The notes under the pieces are model-generated. The model was not told the DNA's origin. It saw nothing but the letters and a program-made list of their open reading frames with translations, and searched no databases. The translations under genes and the position numbers were made by a program. A stretch of DNA of 64,000 bases from Xestospongia bergquistia (Eukaryota > Porifera > Demospongiae > Haplosclerida > Petrosiidae): the NCBI GenBank assembly GCA_963965975.1, contig OZ014419.1, forward strand, positions 1,364,001 to 1,428,000, in the 5' to 3' direction. This document shows, one piece after another, positions 37,162 to 55,378 of this stretch. Every line of letters starts with the position of its first letter. Within the stretch, counting starts at the first letter, position 1.

Positions 37162-37452
37162 TTTGTTTTTGTTTGCAGAAATATCAACACAGACACTCTA
37201 ATTAAGATTTTAAAATCAAACGCAATTAACTTGAAGGAAGACTTTAATCTATCTTCTCCACCGAAATTGCAAGAGACTGGAGTGCGTCGTCTATTAATGA
37301 CTAATAAAGTTGCTCAGAGACCAAGTTAATTCATTTTGGGGGACTAACATGGGGGCGGCTAGTTTGAAGAAGAGACTGACCCGTTTTGACGTGTTGCCAT
37401 TAGCAACTTACTGAAGCCGAAGGTGCTCAGAGACCACGTTAATTAATTCATT

Positions 37453-41876: not shown

Positions 41877-42127
41877 TTTGTTTTGTTTGTTTTCAACAAA
41901 ATATAAACACAGACGCTCTGATTAAGATTTTAAAATCAAAAGCAGCGAAGAAAGACTTTGATCTATCTTCTTCACCGGAACTGCAGGTTGAAGAAGAGAG
42001 TCAGAGGTGTATTGGAGGCGTCACCCATTAGTAACCAATCAGATTGCTCAGAGACCTAGTTAATTCTTTTTGCAGGACTAACAGGGGAGGGGCTAGTTAT
42101 TATATTTCTATGATACACGTGTCTGAA
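41877..42127. promoter_or_regulatory. Divergent promoter between GDH copy 2 and ArgE-like gene A
   Basis: The two start codons are 251 bp apart on opposite strands. The stretch shares CTCAGAGACC(T/A)AGTTAATTC with 37310-37335 of unit 1. Use as a shared promoter is inferred from spacing only. Confidence 0.45.
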
Positions 42128-44018
42128 ATGGCTCTTAGTTTGGAGCTGAACTCTCAAAGATACGTCGACCTCCTTAGGAAATTGATTGGAGAAACAGAGT
42201 TCTTACAGAATAATCCGCCTAAATTCATACCTCAAGAAGATAGGTGAGTGATATCAGTTTAAAAGGTTATAGTTTGATGGTAGGGATGTTAGTTATTGTA
42301 AGTTGGAAAATCTTGTTATATTAAAAAAATAAAATGGTTGAAATTAATTTGACTATAGTACTTTAAATTTGTTTTACTGTCCAAATATAGTAAGGCTGTA
42401 ATAAAAAGAAGTTTAGAAAGTCTAAATTAAAAAAAAAACTTGATAGAGATTATGATTGTAATGATTTCAAGATGCATTGCATTCATCTGGACAATCTGCA
42501 ATAAAAATAGAAGCAATCCATTAATAGAGTGACATTATTTTATTTAGTCTTACCACAGAACTCTTGATTTCCTTTCTTTCCTTTGTCTTTCTTGCCTTTC
42601 TTGTCTTTCTTGCCTTTCTTGCCTTTTATCTTCTTACATTTGCAATAAAGACCTGGTTTCTTTGCCTTTGGGTTTCCTTGTAGAGCAACTGATTCACTCA
42701 TGAAAGTGACTGTACTGATATTAGGAATTTTTATGTCAATATCGTTAGGATCTTGTGGTGCATTGGTTCCATTGAACTTCACACATTTATTGCATAGTAT
42801 GAGAATACTCAATGAAAACGTGGTTGTTTGTACATCATCTTTTTCTTTCATATTACATTGGAAGTCCAGTACTTTTATCATGCATCCTTCTTGGAGTTGT
42901 CCAGAAGTAACTATACTATTTATTACTACCTGTACAAATCCATTTGATAGTTTCAGACATGATAAAGTAGTAGAGGTAAATTTTAGATCCACTTCTCGAC
43001 CTTCTGCAGGCAAACACTTACCTAGTAGCAAAAAGAATTTTTTAAAACTGATATAGATTAGAAGTTAGTTTCTTACCACATCCATCAGTCACATCGACAT
43101 TGCCTAGAAAAAATTTAGCGAAGCATCCTCCACAGTTGTCAAGTTGACAGATTGCACCTGTAACATTTTCACACGTTGCTGTATCACAAGGATCCATTCC
43201 TGTACAGTTACGTGCTGGTTTGTTACGTGGACAAGCTATAGGTATGAGAAGATGTTAGCATTAATTTGCATGGATAAAACTCACGTGGTTGTGCATTAGC
43301 CTGGTACACGAGAACAAAGAAAAGAAATGCTGCAGTTGCTACTAATGTTTTTCCTGCCATTATTGATGCACTTTGGAGTAGAGGAGAAAGATCTGGATAT
43401 GAATTACTCACAAAATATTCTATGGATGAGGTTAGAGAAACTAGTGATGTTAAATCATTTGAGTCCCAGTTAACTTAGCTTAAAAGAACTGACTTACAAA
43501 GTATAGCAAGGAGTATATTTAAACCCTGGATCTCTTTTCCAGTACATCACACTACAGCTGTGCCTTTATATACTAGTAGCTTAGAAACCATCACACATGT
43601 GTAACAGAATGTAGAAGTAATGCATAACTGTCCTCTCCCTGTTGTTGATGAGCTTCTGTTTCTCAAGATATTTAATTAATTGGGAACTTTGCCAACTCAA
43701 GTGTCACACCTTAACAAATCACCTTCTATTGTAAGTGATTTCAATAATTTGCCAACTATTATCAGTTACACCCACTGTATTGTGTTAACTCCCATTAAAA
43801 ATTGGAGCGTGTGGTTAAATGTTTGCTTTATGGAATTTAGTTTATGTTCGTTATCAATAGTTTGTTGGTACATGATTCTATTCTTTGACACAATTTTTAT
43901 TTGTTGTATTTTGGTTACAATATGTCAGCAGGTTTACTATGTACTAATTTGTTTTTTAGTACTTTCAATTACTTCTTATTACAATAAGATAAATAATATA
44001 ATATTGTGTATGTGTATG

Positions 44019-44064
<46 letters not shown>

Positions 44065-47000
44065 TGGTTCACTAGTCTACATGGATTAAACTTGCCAACA
44101 AGGGAATTTGTAAAAGACGTCATCAAATCTTGAAGGTGAAATCTTTTACAAATTCCCTCATCATCAGGTTTATCTGAAAAATTATAGATCGATTAATCAT
44201 GATATATAGTTTATCATGAGATTCATAATTAGCTGCCATTAACACTCCATAATTAGCTGCCATTAACACTCCATAAATAGCATTATTATGGTTGTTGAAC
44301 GATATTCTTTTAAAGATCTTGAGTTGGTAAGTTATATAACACTTATGGACTCATCAACGAAGACAACCAATAAACCTTATCATGAGATCTGTAAAAATAC
44401 AGACGGTATGCAGTTTTTAGAGAAGGAACTAGTCTTTTAAGCTCTCTGGCTCTATATTTCAAATATTAATCTGCTATATAGGAGATCTATATATGCATTT
44501 TATATAAAACCATTCAAAATGCATGGGCTATGAATCTCATCATAAGATATATATCTTTTTTAAGGAGTGATAGTGACAGGTTAGTATGAATTTCATATAT
44601 ATATATGTTTCAATTGTAGACTGTCTGTATATACCTGTTGACTTGAGATTTTAATATTATTTTCTTTATATTTCAATATTCATTAATAGAATTATCTGGT
44701 TCATTTGATTTGATATACTAGCTTTTAAACATGACTTTTTCTCTTGAGAAAATGAGTTAGTTGTAGACACTCATTTATAGTATATAGTAGTAGCAGAAGA
44801 ATTAATCCAATAGTTTGTAAACACTGCTAAATTGTGAGTAACATATTGTAATATATTATTTGCCTTCTAATTGTATTACCTCCTTATTAAGATACACCTG
44901 TTGAAGCAGTACACGATAGTAAGTAATATGGCTACTATAGCAGATGTACATTTACTACCAGTACCGGACATAGTGTTATGATGATTACTGATATATCATT
45001 TAGCATTATTTGAACTATATTAAAATCATCTAATGAGACATTAATAATTATAATTTTTTATAATTGTGTACAAACTTCTAATACCTTGCCAATTTTCAAT
45101 AGCAAGAATTCAAATGCAACTTGGTATCAGCTTTATTATAACTCATAGTAATGGTTACTGAGATGTTCTGATTAGATACATTATATCAATACTCTATATA
45201 GACTTTATATCTTGGGTATAGTAATATTAATACACTTAAAAGTGAACCCAGAGGAAGATTTTGTTTTCCATGATTTTGCTATATGGTAATCAGAATATAC
45301 TATTAATTTGAATATATTAAAAGCTAGTAATAATATAAGTAATATAAGCCAATTATACCAGTCTGGATTGTTATAATTAACAAAGGAAACAATAGTAATT
45401 CACATACCCACCCTAACAGAGTTATCAGTCCCACCTAATGATAAGATAATCAACCACTTGTATAAACTAGAGATTGTTATCATGTACTACTCCCTGTATG
45501 TAACATGATATTTTAGTAAATTTATTATCACCATAACTATTATATATATATTCCTTAACAAAGATAGAATGCTAATATTGTTTATATTATCTGGAACTAT
45601 TAACAATACATCATTTACAATTAATATTTTGGGTTGACTCTAATTGTAAGTAAATTTTACTTACAATTAGAGTCAACCCAAAATATTGAACTGTATACTC
45701 TGTAGTATATAATTATGTATTTGTTACTACCATAATATGATACTAATTTAATTTTAATTTTAATTTTGTTTACCTTTGAGATATTACTTTATTGACAAAT
45801 TACTATTGCATAATTATATACTGCAGAGTATACAGTTCAATATTTTGGGTTGACTCTAATTGTAAGTAAATTATAAATGATGTATTGTTAACATTTCCAG
45901 ATAATATAAACAATATTAGCATTCTATCTTTGTTAAGGGATACATATAATAGTTGTAACCTCAAATGAAATTAACAATTTATTAACAGCTGTTCTTCATA
46001 TTGTTCTTATTTTTATAACATATTCAAAATTTCTTTTTATATTAATGAAATTCAGGGTACACATAACTACACAATAATTGTTTGTATAAAAAGAGTCAAT
46101 TTAACTGAAGTCAATTACAATTGAGATTGTTGTTGACCCAGGAATTTACTCAATTTGGACACCTTTGTGGGCAGGCTATATGATAACAAAAAAGAAAATA
46201 CCTTTGAAATATGATCAAATATTTACTTACGACATGTTGGTGTGAGCTTGACTTTAGTACAATCACAGTAATAAGATAACTTTTTCTTTAGCTTGATCTT
46301 CTTTATCTTAAAAGTTTTACTTTTGATAAGAATGGAACTTGAAGTTATAGTTGGAGGTATTATTGATATAGGAAGAGATTGGAAATTGGGATAGAAGAAA
46401 CAACGATTACAGAGAACTAGAAATTTTATTTGGAGCTCAACATTAAAGGAGCCTTTCCTGTTCTTTTGCTTACAACAATATGTTTGTATTTTGACTGTAC
46501 AATTCTGTCTGTGAATGTCTGGGAGCTGTAGGTATATAGCAGTCTCTATTGTTGTAACTTTTGGTAGATCACGACATTTGCAGTTCATGGCTGTTAATAT
46601 ACTAGTAAACTCAAAACCTTGGGCTGGCCAACAAGTCTCTGAATAATGAATAAGACAATAATTAAGATGTTTGTTGTTGATGTGTAGTATCTTACGAGCA
46701 GTAGTAGTTGTCACATAAAGTAATATTAGAAGACCAGATAGCACCACAATCTTCATTGTATTGTTGTATACTTTTAAAATAATAGATGATTTTAATTTTA
46801 AAGGAATCCAGATATTTTATTCTTTTATTTACTGTTGGTTGTAGAGAAAACACTTACTTGTTCTTTTTCACAACTTGAAGTTTAGGTATTTCACAGCTTG
46901 AAGATATGATGGCGTCTTGAAGTTTAGGTATTTCACAGCTTGAAGATGTAGTGGTGTCTTTAGTCTTTACTTCCTTCTGTTGTGTAGTTCAAAACATGTC

Positions 47001-49480
47001 TTTTATGCTACTTCTCAAGAATGGAATTTTAAGTTAACTTTAGATGTAGCAAGAATTCAAAATCAGATTATACACGAAGTATAGTAGTGTATAGCACTAA
47101 CTACAAAAATTTGAGTCACATATTTTGTGTAAGTCAGTACAATTAGCGATTTTAATCTTAGGAAAAGAAAATTTACTAATATATCATAAAATAGTTATTT
47201 AATAATATATTTAAAACGTTATTTTAAATTATTAGAAAAAACATTTTATTCAAAATTCTATTTTGTACTAATGTGATTACCAAGCCTAAAGGCAAGGCAC
47301 ATAGTTGAGATTTTTAGACTTTGTTGTCCATTATCTATAGTCTCATCCCCAGACATCATACCCATGGGGATGAGACTAATCTGGTTAGTAAGAAATTCCT
47401 ATTAAACTATGGTGTGTGGTTGGACTCTAAATGTCTTGTATCTTTTCATTTACTAGAGCTATTAAACATCTTCTTGAAGCTCTCAAGTCTCACACTATTG
47501 AAAATGGTGGACCACTAAAAGTTGAACATGTCACTTATGTTGAAGGGCGTGGTAATCTCGTCATAGGATATTCACCTCCGAGTGCTACCGAGGGTACAAT
47601 ATCATTTATAGGTAGCCATTTGGACTGTGTTCCTGCTGATCCTGAGACATGGGAAAGACATCCCTTCAAGTTAACTGTGGAGGTACATATAATTCTGGTT
47701 TCAAACTTTACTTTAAAAGTGATATAAAATTATTGCTATATTATAGGGTGACAAGTTGTATGGACGTGGTACTACTGACTGTTTGGGACATGTTGCTTTG
47801 ATAACCGACCTGTTTATCCAGCTGGCTGAGAAGAAACCTCAACTCAAACGTTCTGTGTGGGCTGTCTTCATTGCATGGTATGTAACTATGCCTCATTGGA
47901 TGCTAGAATCATTATACATCTAAAAATCACTAAGTTACTCCCATGTATTGGGTAAATTAGGTATTCTTTGAATGTGAGTGACAACTTGTTAGATCAGAGC
48001 TATTAATAAGATTTCTGTTTATCACCTTTCATGCATGCAGGTGTAGATTTTATAGAACTTCATGCAATAATAACAATTCAATTTCAGTTAAATGAATTAT
48101 TTATAATTGGAATTTTAGGTTCCTTCAATATTTGTAATAGTTGTATTATATTATTTGAGATTATCTCTTTTGTAGTGAAGAGAACAGTGTTATACCTAAT
48201 GTTGGTGTGGACATGTTACTAAAACATGGAAAGCTAGATGGTTTACAAAATGGACCAGTTTACTGGATAGATTCTGCCGATATGGATCCTTGTATAGGTA
48301 CATACTGTATTACATTATAGATACTGTAGAGTACCTCCATAAGATCCACTACTACTTAAATCTTAATACTACATACTTAATTAGGTTGTGCAAGCACTCC
48401 ATAGTCATGTAATTGTCTGCATTAAATGTGTTTTTGAGGTAATATCTATCTAGGTACTGCTTCAGCAATTATGTGGATGTTAAAAGTGACTGGACGTCTT
48501 TTTCATTCAGGTTTACCACACAAAGTACATGTCATTATAATTTCAACCAAGTATGTAATCCTTCATTTGTAGGGTATCAATAGTCTAGAATTAGCAAATG
48601 AAATTTGTGCTTATTTGCAGACTAAATTCTATCAAGATTATCCTGCAGTAAGCTCTAACATATACTCCATACTGCTGTAATCTTTATTTTACATAATAAG
48701 CATCCTTCTGAAGAGCAATATCAATTCCTAACACCCTCTACTATGAAACCCACTCAAATTAAATGTTCTGAAGGTTCTGTGAACCAGTTACCACCTTGGA
48801 CTGAAATAAAAGGCAAAAAATAATTATCATAATTAATTTCTTTATTAACTCTCTTTCTTTTATTATTAACAGGTGACATTCGACTGACTCCATTTTACAA
48901 TGTGGATGAATGCATCAAGAGAATGCAAGGCTATGTAGAAGAATTAAACAATGGTAATAATTATAATAAAAAGAAAATATTGACATTATATTATTAGATC
49001 TGAGTCTTTTACCAATGCGAGGGCCATGCAGTAAATATTCTATCTCTGATTCTAATATTGGACAAACCATTACTGGTAAAATAGAATTTCGACTAATGGG
49101 AGAAGCATTTAAAGTGCTTGAAATAATTGTTTACTTTAATTATATGTATTTGATTTTAGGGCATAGCTTGTAACTTGGAATCTTGTGGATATAAGAATCT
49201 TCATGAAGCTACTGCTGAAGTATTAGGTGTTAGCAATCCATACTCTGATTGCGGTAGCTTACCACTTGTAGCCGACCTCCAAGAAGCTGGCTTTGATGTT
49301 CAAGTATACACTTGTACATTCAATGTCTGTTAGAATGAAATTATTTTCTTTTTATCTATCTAGATTACAGGATATGGTCATAGTCATGTTTATCATGGAG
49401 ACAATGAATACTGCAGTCTCTCGTGTATGCAGGATGCTATGAAGATTCTCAGTCATATACTGGACAAGTACAACCAGTAA
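42128..49480 (+). CDS. Acetylornithine deacetylase-like M20 hydrolase (gene A)
   Basis: In plants and Dictyostelium, related enzymes act on N-acetylornithine. Exon 1 (42128-42243, MALSLELNSQRYVDLLRKLI) is followed by an intron of about 5.2 kb, then exon 2 at 47457 (AIKHLLEALKSHT). Phases match those of gene B, whose first intron is only about 75 bp. Metal-site motifs are SFIGSHLDCVPADP (HxD), LYGRGTTDCLGH and the EE of CEENS. Later come LFHSGLPHK, STMKPTQ, GDIRLTPFYNVDEC and YGHSHVYHGDNEYC. All later exons are open. One intron (48813) needs a GC donor, because reading through AAAGGCAAAAAATAA gives a stop. Exons 2-3 and the intron between are nearly identical to gene B, but later parts diverge. 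Alternatively, exon 1 could be orphaned and the rest driven by a new start. Confidence 0.8.
42467..43360 (-). CDS. Small secreted Cys-rich protein, unrecognised family (paralog 1)
   Basis: It lies antisense in the long intron of ArgE-like gene A. Reconstructed exons on the minus strand: the signal peptide MAGKTLVATAAFLFFVLVYQ plus ANAQ from 43360; an exon at about 43077-43237 with CPRNKPARNC, DPCDTATC and CQLDNCGGCFAKFF; a large exon at about 42550-43028 starting KCLPAEGREVDLKFTSTTLS; and a mini-exon ending 42467 that reads DCPDECNAS. The large exon has LILCNKC, then LYCKCKK and a Lys-rich GKKGKKDKKGKKDKGKK run. Without the last splice the frame would stop at 42540 after GNQEFCGKTK. The large exon and terminal mini-exon correspond to those of the gene at 46150. 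The Cys-pair exon is extra. Function is unknown. Confidence 0.7.
44018..44061. repeat. (TA)n microsatellite
   Basis: About 22 TA dinucleotides. Confidence 0.95.
44101..44158. repeat. Hairpin with 17-bp perfect arms
   Basis: AGGGAATTTGTAAAAGA (44101-44117) pairs with TCTTTTACAAATTCCCT (44142-44158) across a 24-base loop. It is probably a tiny foldback element. Confidence 0.9.
44224..44275. repeat. 26-bp direct repeat, two copies
   Basis: CATAATTAGCTGCCATTAAC plus ACTC is present twice in a row, followed by a third partial CATAAATAG. Confidence 0.9.
45530..45960. mobile_element. Large nested palindromic foldback element
   Basis: Outer arms: TTCCTTAACAAAGATAGAAT onward (45551-45595) is the reverse complement of 45896-45940, and the match extends into the flanking ACTATTATATATATA. 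An inner block with TTTTGGGTTGACTCTAATTG occurs at about 45628-45660, inverted at 45656-45690, and again direct at about 45838-45872. A third block (GAACTGTATACTCTGTAG, 45690-45716) is inverted at 45811-45838. The order is A-B-B'-C-C'-B-A'. There is no coding capacity, so it would need a transposase from elsewhere. It is best called a MITE or foldback element. Confidence 0.85.
46150..46756 (-). CDS. Small secreted Cys-rich protein, unrecognised family (paralog 2)
   Basis: The signal peptide MKIVVLSGLLILLYVTTTTA is followed by a probable 57-bp intron (GTAAGATAC to TTATTCAG, in frame and stop-free). Removing it gives AQTCWPAQGFEFTSIL, which parallels KCLPAEGREVDLKFTS of the other copy. Further shared landmarks are the spacing of CCKQK/QCNMK, FLVLCNRC versus LILCNKC, and YYCDC versus LYCKC. 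The donor after LTPTC splices to a mini-exon at 46150-46175 reading PCPQRCPN and stop. It is smaller than paralog 1, lacking the DPCDTATC exon and the long Lys run. It lies antisense in the same ArgE intron. No family is recognised, and secretion is inferred from the leader. Confidence 0.7.
46874..46957. repeat. 42-bp direct repeat, two copies
   Basis: CTTGAAGTTTAGGTATTTCA begins each copy; the ends differ slightly (GATATGATGGCGT versus GATGTAGTGGTGT). The repeat lies just upstream of secreted paralog 2 and could lie in its promoter. Confidence 0.9.
47339..47377. repeat. Hairpin with 12-bp perfect arms
   Basis: AGTCTCATCCCC (47339-47350) pairs with GGGGATGAGACT (47366-47377). The left half AGTCTCATCCCCAGAC resembles the cadherin-intron hairpin arm AGTCTCATACCCAGAC at 13258. 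Confidence 0.85.
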
Positions 49481-50554: not shown

Positions 50555-51678
50555 TTATTCAAATTCGCCACTACCTATTAAGAATGAGATAATAAACTGT
50601 TTACAATTGTTATATGTAGCTTACTTGATTCAACTAATTCAATTCTCACAGTTTGAGTGTCAGTGTTACAATCATTGATAGCAGTACAGATATAATCACC
50701 AGTGTCAGCTTCTGTGACTGTAAATGATAGCATTTGGTCCATTGCTATCCTTTGATTAGGTCCACTAATCATGTATTTGTCAGCAAATTTAGTGATACAT
50801 TTTATATCAACTATATCTCCTCGATTAGGACAGAGTGTAGCATTACTGTTTAGAGGACATTGATTATCAGATTTTCCTCGAAGTGATGCAGAGACTGAAG
50901 ACACTTTTGGATCTGAAAGAGGGCCATAAAAGGAAAAAGAAAGATATATAACTTACCTAAGAGAACACAAGAGACCTCAGTATCATATCCAAACCGATTA
51001 GTGAGATTACATAATATGCTTCCATGAATTTGTGCAGATATTAGACCTACTTTCCACATAACCAAATGTGTTGAATAGCCAATCTCATTCACAGGAGGTG
51101 CCACACCAAGAACAAAAGGAGGCCCTGTAATTAGCTCTCCATTCAAGAAAAATTGAGCTGACGGTTCTGGTTGTATCTTTTCTTTTTGTGAACACACAAT
51201 ACCAGGAAAAAATGCTGTCATTTGTTCTAAACAGAATTTTTTCCCAATTCTATATGATGCCATAATGTTCATAAATAATACGACAGGGTCATTTCCTCTT
51301 TTAATGGTTGGAGAATCACCTAAAAGATAAATAATGGATTTATATTGAGAATTTAATATTCTATTATAAATTATTTTACATTCAAATTTGAGATAATAGT
51401 ATTCAATATTCTATTGTATTATGTGCTCTCTTTATGTGTGAATTAAGTAGGTGTTACAGTGGGCATCTGACCTATAACATCTGTTGTAGAACTAAAGTTG
51501 ACACACATCCTTATAGGGTGGGGACCGAGAGGTACTTGTGTATCATAGCAAACTTTACAAGTGTAGCGACCAGCATTGCCATATTTGGATGGAGATGTAA
51601 TGGATGGATGGTATATATATAAAAACCTGTCATTATCACCATATATTTCAATTCTGGAGAGAGAGAGAGAGAAAATCA

Positions 51679-51766
<88 letters not shown>

Positions 51767-52326
51767 GTGTGTGTATCACATACCCAGTTGAATATGAAAC
51801 AGGGGTCATTGAAGCTAAATGCCCATTCAAATCAAAGTTTTGAACAAACCACTCAGTTTTTATATTAGAAATAATAGGACTAAACTCTAGAATTCTATTA
51901 ATAATTGGACTGCAGTCAAAAGTCATCTTGACTGTATCTCGGATTAATACAATGCGTTCCAATCTATTTTTTGGTATCTGTACTGTCACATTACCAGCTA
52001 CAGAGTGAAGAATTATAAATAATTGAATATATACCGATATAGATATATTATATCAATTAACTGACATTTTATAAATGGCCTCCCATCATTGGGTATTTTA
52101 AGGGGACCAGGCCAGGGATAAAATTCACAATAACCACATATAAATACCTATATATTGGAAGGAAAACAGTGAATTTAAGAGATAATGTGATTAATTGCGA
52201 AGTATTATAATAATACAATTTTTTAATCAATAAAATTAATTATTATAAATTAAAAACAGCACATATTGAAAATAAGAAAATTTTACTTACTGCAAAGAAA
52301 ATCAAAACAACAGCAGTGCCTGACAT
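50555..52326 (-). CDS. Secreted immunoglobulin-domain protein
   Basis: The start MSGTAVVLIFFA (52315-52326) is a short hydrophobic leader interrupted by an intron. Later exons give CGYCEFYPWPGPLKIPNDGR, then VTVQIPKNRLERIVLIRD with MTFDCSP and EWFVQNFD, then YGNAGRYTCKVCYD, then SILCNLTNRFGYD, and finally an Ig-like unit with VDIKCITKF, FTVTEADTGDYICTAIN. The (D/N)xGxYxC signatures mark about three Ig-like domains. After LVESS the last exon reads SGEFE and stops at 50555-50557, so no transmembrane helix or tail follows. A secreted form is inferred. A (TA)n array of about 90 bp lies in one intron. The ligand is unknown. It lies antisense between ArgE-like genes A and B. Confidence 0.75.
51683..51762. 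repeat. (TA)n microsatellite in the Ig gene intron
   Basis: About 40 uninterrupted AT dinucleotides. IYIY open frames on both strands are artefacts of it. Confidence 0.95.
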
Positions 52327-53179: not shown

Positions 53180-55378
53180 ATGGCTCTTGGTTTGGAGTTG
53201 AATAGTCAGAGATACTTGGATCTGCTCACGAAATTGATTGGAGAGACAGAGTTTTTGCAGAATAATCCTCCAAAATTCATACCTCAAGAAGACAGGTATG
53301 TAGAAGACATGTGACAATGATATGTAATTATATCATCATTTTAATGCAATTCTGGTTTCATTCTCTTCAGAGCTATTAAACATCTTCTTGAAGCTCTCAA
53401 GTCTCACACTATTGAAAATGGTGGACCACTAAAAGTTGAACATGTCACTTATGTTGAAGGACGTGGCAATCTTATCATAGGATATTCACCTCCGAGTGCT
53501 ACTGAGGGTACTATATCATTTATAGGTAGTCATTTAGACTGTGTTCCTGCTGATCCTGAGACATGGGAAAGACATCCCTTCAAGTTAACTGTGGAGGTAC
53601 ATATAATTCTGGTTTCAAACTTTACTTTAAAAATGATATAAAATTATTGCTATATTATAGGGTGACAAGTTGTATGGACGTGGTACTACTGACTGTTTGG
53701 GACATGTTGCTCTGATAACAGAATTGTTTATCCAGCTGGCTGAAAAGAAACCTCAACTCAAACGTTCCGTGTGGGCTGTCTTCATTGCATGGTAAGTCAA
53801 ACCTGCTACATTAACCAGAAATCAAAAGTAATGTAAAATAACTTGTTTGTTTAGTTAAGGTAATTCATATGTGAACACCATGTGATAATTGATTTAGAGA
53901 TTAATAACAGGGCTTCTATAATCACTATTTGATTTTTAACTTATTCCTATACTTAGTGAGGAGAATACTTCAATACCTAACGTTGGAGTAGATGCTATGC
54001 TTAAAGATGGCAGGCTAGAGAATTTCAAGAATGGACCTATATATTGGATTGACTCAGCTGACAATAATCCTTGTGTTGGTAGGTTAATTGTTAACATGTG
54101 TTTGTTTTGTTAACTTCAAGCTTCAAATTCAAAGATACATGTTAGATATTAGAATTTTATTTAGTATAGATGGTTATCTTTGCTCCATTAGGTACTGCTT
54201 CGGCTGCAATGTGGAAATTGAGAGTCGATGGTCGTCTTTTTCACTCAGGTCTCCCTCATAAGGTAACTGTCCAATACTGTGACATTTTATGTAGACCAAG
54301 TTAATTTGACAGGGCATAAACAGTGTGGAATTGGCTGATGAAGTGGTTTCCTATCTACAGAAAAAATTCTATGAAAACTATCCTGCTGTATGTTATTATA
54401 ATGAATACATTAATAAATAGTGATTTATGGTTGGGTAGGGCAATGAGCAATGACCACATTGATAGATAGAATCTATTTTCCTCGTAGCATACTGATGAGG
54501 AGCGTTACATGTTTGCCACACCCTCTACCATGAAACCCACTCAAATTCAATGTTCTGAAGGTGCTGTTAACCAAATTCCTGCTTGGACTGAGGTCAAAGG
54601 TCAGATCATGTACTATATTATGACAACTGATGAATATTCTATTAAAGGTGATATACGTCTTACTCCTTTCTATGATATTGATGAGTGCATGGCAAGAATT
54701 ATGGGATTAGTGGAAGAGCTAAACAAAGGTCTGGTATTTAGTACAAGCTAGCTATTCAACTTATATGTCTTTACTATAGACTTTAGTGTTCTACCAACAC
54801 GTGGTCCATGTAGCAAGTATTCCATCACTGATACTACAACTGGTGAGAGTTTTACTGGCAAACTGACCTTCAAATTTGAGGGAGATGCAATGAAGGTAGT
54901 TACCGTGACAACAATAGAGCATTACTTCCCTTATCTAGGGCATTGCTTGTAATATGAATAGCCAGGGCTTCAAATTCCTTCATGAAGCTACTAAAGAAGT
55001 TCTTGGAGAGAGTAAGCCTTTCTCTATCTGTGGTAGTCTCCCTCTTGTGGGAGACCTGCAAAAGGCTGGCTTTGATATTCAGGTACCACTTTCATGAGCT
55101 AGTGTAAAATTTGATTTGATACAATCATACTACCTAGCTATCATTTTGTTATTATAATAGAAATAATAGAGAAATAGACTAAAATCCAGACTAAATGGAA
55201 TAGACATTTTAACTGACTATGTATAAATTGCTATAGATCAATCAGGTATCGTTTCTCACTACAGACATGTGGTTACGGTCACAGTCATGTCTACCATGGC
55301 AACAATGAGTACTGCAGTCTCTCATGTATGCAGAATGCCATCAAAATTCTGAGCCACATAATAGACAAGTACAACTAG
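53180..55378 (+). CDS. Acetylornithine deacetylase-like M20 hydrolase (gene B)
   Basis: The start MALGLELNSQRYLDLLTKLI is followed after a 75-bp intron by AIKHLLEALKSHT, then SFIGSHLDCVPADPETWERH, LYGRGTTDCLGHVALI, FIACEENTSIPNVGVDAML, KLRVDGRLFHSGLPHK, TPSTMKPTQIQCSEGAVNQI, GDIRLTPFYDIDECMARI, a C-terminal half with GSLPLVGDLQKAGFDIQ, and CGYGHSHVYHGDNEYC. HxD, GRGTTD and EE cover the expected M20 metal site. About 11 exons give about 430 residues, close to plant-type acetylornithine deacetylases. All splice sites are canonical and no break was found. It is the most compact and complete family member here. Its last exons were duplicated to 59037-59480 as a pseudogene. A TTTTTTAATAAATT signal-like word lies near 55490. 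Confidence 0.87.

Follow-up and report, generated by a model that had tools for sequence, protein, structure and literature searches.

Two intron-nested genes of the sponge Xestospongia bergquistia as probable members of an uncatalogued family of secreted cysteine-rich proteins

C-terminal cystine-knot and netrin-like (NTR) domains are cysteine-rich and are found at the C-terminus of extracellular proteins. The allorecognition and aggregation factor genes of sponges are marked by expression in grafts, polymorphism, and Calx-beta or Wreath domains. One report describes intron-nested genes as common in sponges, with 3358 in Amphimedon queenslandica and 2432 in Aphrocallistes vastus, and gives 0-83 nested genes for two other annotations, which the authors attribute to the annotation method (PMC10282587). 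The two genes described here, A and B, likewise lie inside an intron. They are located in a 64-kb stretch of DNA (C9:1364001-1428000, hereafter the window), and the genome searched comprised 146.5 Mb in 21 contigs.

It had originally been predicted that A and B are antisense within one host intron, and both indeed lie on the minus strand, enclosed by the first two exons (42110-42244 and 47458-47682) of a plus-strand M20 gene, which we take to be a CNDP-type dipeptidase. Exon 3 of this host passes the Pfam Peptidase_M20 cut-off (25.1 vs 24.6 bits), whereas exon 2 alone falls below it. The host is part of a tandem cluster of M20/CNDP-like dipeptidases at 37450-62610 (plus strand). This cluster contains a relic exon 1, interrupted by a stop, at 37450 and four copies whose exon 1 matches are at 42110, 53171, 56190 and 60151. 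Intron 1 of the host, placed by exon matches and splice positions at 42246-47457 (plus strand, about 5.2 kb), holds both genes. Since intron 1 of the other three dipeptidase copies is short (about 74, 282 and 389 bp), only the host copy has the long intron that carries A and B. Dipeptidase copies 1 and 2 share 95.5% identity over 47444-47883 and 53356-53797 but 84.7% in exon 1, a contrast that points to gene conversion or to a recent duplication of partial extent.

Several other features were observed around these genes. An imperfect inverted repeat of 420 bp lies between A and B (45535-45954, 71% between its own strands); membership in a repeat family was considered for it, but the genome search, which skips very common words, gave no second place. 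Between dipeptidase copies 1 and 2 there is a possible Ig-like gene on the minus strand (approximately 50581-52052), whose two domain matches, to Ig_2 at E 0.015 and to I-set at E 0.026, are below cut-off, and one of its ORFs reaches a (TA)n repeat at about 51678-51790. Approximately 75 kb past the window, at C9:1502757-1523415, is a tandem array of peptidase C1 (cathepsin-like) exons; it was considered as a marker of sponges, but the copy that was read has CGSCWAFS, as in ordinary cathepsin, and is thus uninformative about phylum.

Both minus-strand genes can be spliced in frame, A from four exons into a product of 243 aa and B from three exons into a product of 164 aa. Hydropathy together with the spliced translation indicates a hydrophobic, signal-peptide-like N-terminus in exon 1 of A (43285-43360, where the donor was also used) and of B (46696-46756). 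In A this is followed by exon 2, which encodes an 8-Cys module (43077-43235, 159 bp, with both ends in phase 1; placed by spliced translation and genome matches), and by exon 3, which encodes the core domain with a Lys-rich run near the core's end (42554-43021; spliced translation and core comparison). The core domain of B, placed in the same way, occupies exon 2 (46231-46638), so that the architecture of this gene is a signal-peptide-like N-terminus plus core. Each gene closes with a mini-exon supported by spliced translation and the mini-exon scan, which reads D-C-P-D-E-C-N-A-S and a stop in A (42467-42495) and P-C-P-Q-R-C-P-N and a stop in B (46150-46175). The five introns, with lengths of 49, 55 and 58 bp for A and of 57 and 55 bp for B, are all GT-AG and in phase 1, in keeping with the exon plan that the two genes were expected to have in common. 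The 57-bp intron named in the original prediction is the first intron of B, and its coordinates for B's mini-exon stand, while those for A's (42467-42490) required correction at one end. The motifs C(L/W)PA(E/Q)G, LCN(K/R)C, YC(K/D)C and C-P-x-x-C, previously noted with LCNxC and YCxC as the middle two, were each found in both spliced proteins.

The mini-exons had been regarded as doubtful and are now well supported at the level of sequence. The pattern sought began with AG and two bases, continued with C-P, two or three codons and C, and required a stop within 25 residues. It was scanned for over 0.4-1.6 kb that spanned the end of the core exon and the sequence beyond, in A, B and six of the seven other core copies (all but C15:3823370). 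A CP-x-x-C mini-exon with a stop behind a phase-1 acceptor was present in all eight, with exactly one mini-exon-like place per stretch scanned. In the 64-kb window as a whole, the same scan gave three places for the two strands together, A and B included. One of the eight, C15:3868519, looks broken because its core exon has a stop before the last cysteine; its mini-exon is still recognisable.

The cores of A and B share 25% identity (BLASTP, E 2e-7), and their local score of 112 was reached by none of 300 shuffles in which the cysteines were kept in place and the remaining residues shuffled (maximum 64). Together with the signal-peptide-like N-termini, this homology bears out the description of A and B as two secreted Cys-rich paralogs. 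At least nine core copies are present in the genome, A, B and the broken copy included, and the number is a lower bound because the genome search scores best candidates only. Besides A and B these are C13:1605846, C15:1609894, C15:3461655, C15:3809925, C15:3823370 (a near copy of C15:3809925), C15:3868519 and C15:3871149, and there are core fragments or decayed copies near C15:3829880, 3834761, 3863446 and 3864623. When run against a small number of ORFs, a five-copy profile matched three copies outside its build (E 6.8e-20, 8.3e-14 and 9e-8); it also matches A and B, but both are among its builders, and the pairwise shuffles provide the independent support. Several core copies and fragments are interspersed with module- and Kunitz-bearing genes over approximately 62 kb at C15:3809925-3871781. 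Candidates that were rejected as core copies include C5:6286094 (E 0.28, antisense to a long ankyrin-like ORF as judged by eye) and C5:6292445 (E 0.60), both at chance level, and two C6 places that fit the CxPA(E/Q)G pattern with no profile match over either.

In sequence terms, the core is characterised by the signature C-x-P-A-x-G ... L-C-N-x-C ... Y/F-C ... C-D/P-C-P-x-x-C, a short tail and a stop, over approximately 140-225 residues. This putative domain is C-terminal, behind a signal peptide in B, the 8-Cys module in A, or fibronectin type III (fn3) in one and the same ORF at C13:1605846 (PF00041, E 1.4e-7) and C15:1609894 (E 3.5e-6), both over the cut-off. By eye on unspliced sequence, C15:3461655 and C15:3809925 resemble B in having a signal peptide plus core. 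A search for Ig before the core gave Ig_2 at E 0.0084, below the Pfam cut-off, for C15:1609894, no Pfam family in the two ORFs before C13:1605846 that could hold Ig, and neither a Pfam nor an Ig match in the ORFs before C15:3871149, including an fn3-like one. Taken jointly with the exon history discussed below, A and B are very likely members of an uncatalogued family with a C-terminal Cys-rich extracellular domain. The original prediction of a shared family holds, and the family extends beyond the pair, since the core recurs elsewhere and twice stands behind fn3.

Searches of known families agree with the earlier view that the family is unrecognised, as neither a Pfam-A model nor a credible PDB sequence match was found. 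In scans of whole A and B and five single cores, no Pfam-A family exceeded its curated cut-off, and the core had no Kunitz or other inhibitor match. Rep-A_N appeared in one of the five cores scanned (E 0.004-0.007, 17 bits vs a cut-off of 26.7) and was rejected, and NCBIfam gave one chance-level match (E 0.49) in one of seven members. Against PDB sequences, there was no match to A alone at E up to 10 (phmmer) or to the five-copy core profile, and the seven-copy profile reached E 0.41 at best; its matches at E 0.41-0.92, two alphavirus E2 entries and one uncharacterised protein, are at chance level. An AlphaFold model of the core exons of A and B, built from these two sequences, had a mean pLDDT of 50.8, which is too poor for fold comparison and offers at most a hint that the core may have three long strands. 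The core domain was not named in the titles and abstract starts covered by a literature search, which does not imply that it is unpublished.

The eight-cysteine domain encoded by exon 2 of A is distinct from the core. A genome search with A listed 134 matches, of which 91 rows were at E 1.0e-3 or better by hand count; subtracting A's own core and module leaves 89 other matches at E of about 1e-3 or better. These are matches and not genes, because neighbouring rows may come from the same gene; many rows also contain stops, since the match extends beyond its exon. Within the window, A is the only match of the module profile, and in the six other core-bearing loci (7-9.5 kb each) there was none at E up to 0.01. 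Kunitz domains adjoin the module at both places scanned, C7:7159846 and C15:3841000-3847000, where four of the six ORFs given to Pfam were Kunitz. The five module copies scanned had no Pfam match over cut-off, and A's own module matched no Pfam family, PF00014 (Kunitz/BPTI) included. An extra Cys-rich exon that A had either gained or kept was suggested originally. The exon itself is confirmed, and gain is the better reading because the module is separate, has 89 other matches and was not found in the six other core loci read. As a length of 159 bp with phase-1 ends is expected for exon shuffling, A probably acquired the module in this way, as an inserted exon with symmetric 1-1 phase.

The sequences speak less clearly on the local duplication within the host intron that had been predicted from position and exon plan. 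In a tree of eight cores A and B are joined with support of 72/55, as long branches that meet, and there is no well-supported set around either. Shuffle z values are about as high to other copies (A-C15:3868519 11.0; B-C13:1605846 10.6) as between the two (10.4), so the sequences fail to show the duplication. It is plausible from the common strand and intron.

The Lys-rich run noted in A was recovered as a strong basic 25-residue window near the core's end. Across the eight cores, the best such window has a net charge of +11 to +14 in six, a value reached by 0-7 of 2000 same-letter shuffles. These runs are mostly Lys and occur in one of three loops, namely before the LCNxC strand (C15:1609894, C15:3809925 and C15:3871149), after LCNxC (C15:3461655 and C13:1605846) or after YCxC (A). 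Among window ORFs of at least 120 aa, two of 31 reach +9, and their values of 13 and 9 equal those of A and B, both of which were left in. Because basic runs recur at three loop positions, we propose polyanion docking as a putative role. The core would be a compact domain with approximately 4-6 disulfides and loops tolerant of insertion, and its polybasic loops would dock the protein by charge on acidic glycans or proteoglycans, whether in the matrix, in mucus or at the cell surface. Adhesion would come from the N-terminal part, which in A would instead contribute the activity of the 8-Cys module associated with Kunitz domains. An extracellular setting fits the fibronectin, Ig-like and Kunitz domains found as neighbours. 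Docking is weakened by B, whose window of +9 is within shuffle reach (168 of 2000), and by C15:3868519 (early stop), which is without a run (+3, reached by 1921 of 2000), and it is proposed tentatively, as somewhat doubtful. The explanation as a whole, which combines family, exon history and docking, comes close to an even chance without attaining it.

Lys runs can also come from slippage in A-rich DNA, which counts against docking. The genes could encode structural or recognition proteins that are specific to the lineage, in which case the Lys runs would be neutral products of slippage in length-tolerant loops, with no charge-based binding. Slippage is a fair alternative in an AT-rich genome (26-38% GC by 2-kb blocks in the window), and the place and length of the runs vary among copies; however, the charge per 25 residues is strongly positive and not mixed, and the runs recur in six of eight copies. 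This reading appears unlikely. Secreted defence or protease control appears equally unlikely, with the stable core scaffold acting on microbes or proteases, the module of A derived from Kunitz-bearing genes and the cationic runs acting on bacterial surfaces. The proteins are small, secreted, cationic and Cys-rich and the module adjoins Kunitz domains as described above, yet the core is without an inhibitor match and the two copies behind fn3 are better suited to adhesion. It is far less probable that A, B or both are in decay or unexpressed, as copies left behind in the intron. Other copies are broken, as seen in the early stop at C15:3868519 and the fragments near C15:3829880, 3834761 and 3863446, but in A and B the reading frames are open and the splice sites in phase, and both retain a signal-like N-terminus and the mini-exon. 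Polyanion docking also has a broader form, in which selection repeatedly put polybasic runs in three loops of a lineage-restricted domain, making it a general docking C-terminus of secreted adhesion proteins; A would then be a hybrid, produced by exon shuffling, of two domains absent from the libraries searched. This form appears improbable, on a par with defence and neutral slippage.

These genes draw attention to two putative extracellular domains without a Pfam model, of which the 8-Cys module is abundant in the Xestospongia bergquistia genome. The signature CxPAxG ... CxCPxxC-stop includes a mini-exon of less than 30 bp, which could easily be overlooked in gene prediction. Should the recurring polybasic loops be functional, the family would provide a simple test case for anchoring secreted proteins to an acidic matrix.

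Compared with known systems, the CxCxxC-like ending of the core recalls the C-terminal cystine knot, but none of five cores matches the cystine-knot or NTR Pfam families at E up to 10. The fn3/Ig adhesion proteins are approached by the two other core copies that follow fn3 in the same ORF, whereas A and B are without fn3 or Ig and the core is without a Pfam match over cut-off. Similarly, A has no Kunitz domain and its module no Pfam match over cut-off, but Kunitz/BPTI-bearing secreted genes of the same genome carry copies of this 8-Cys module.
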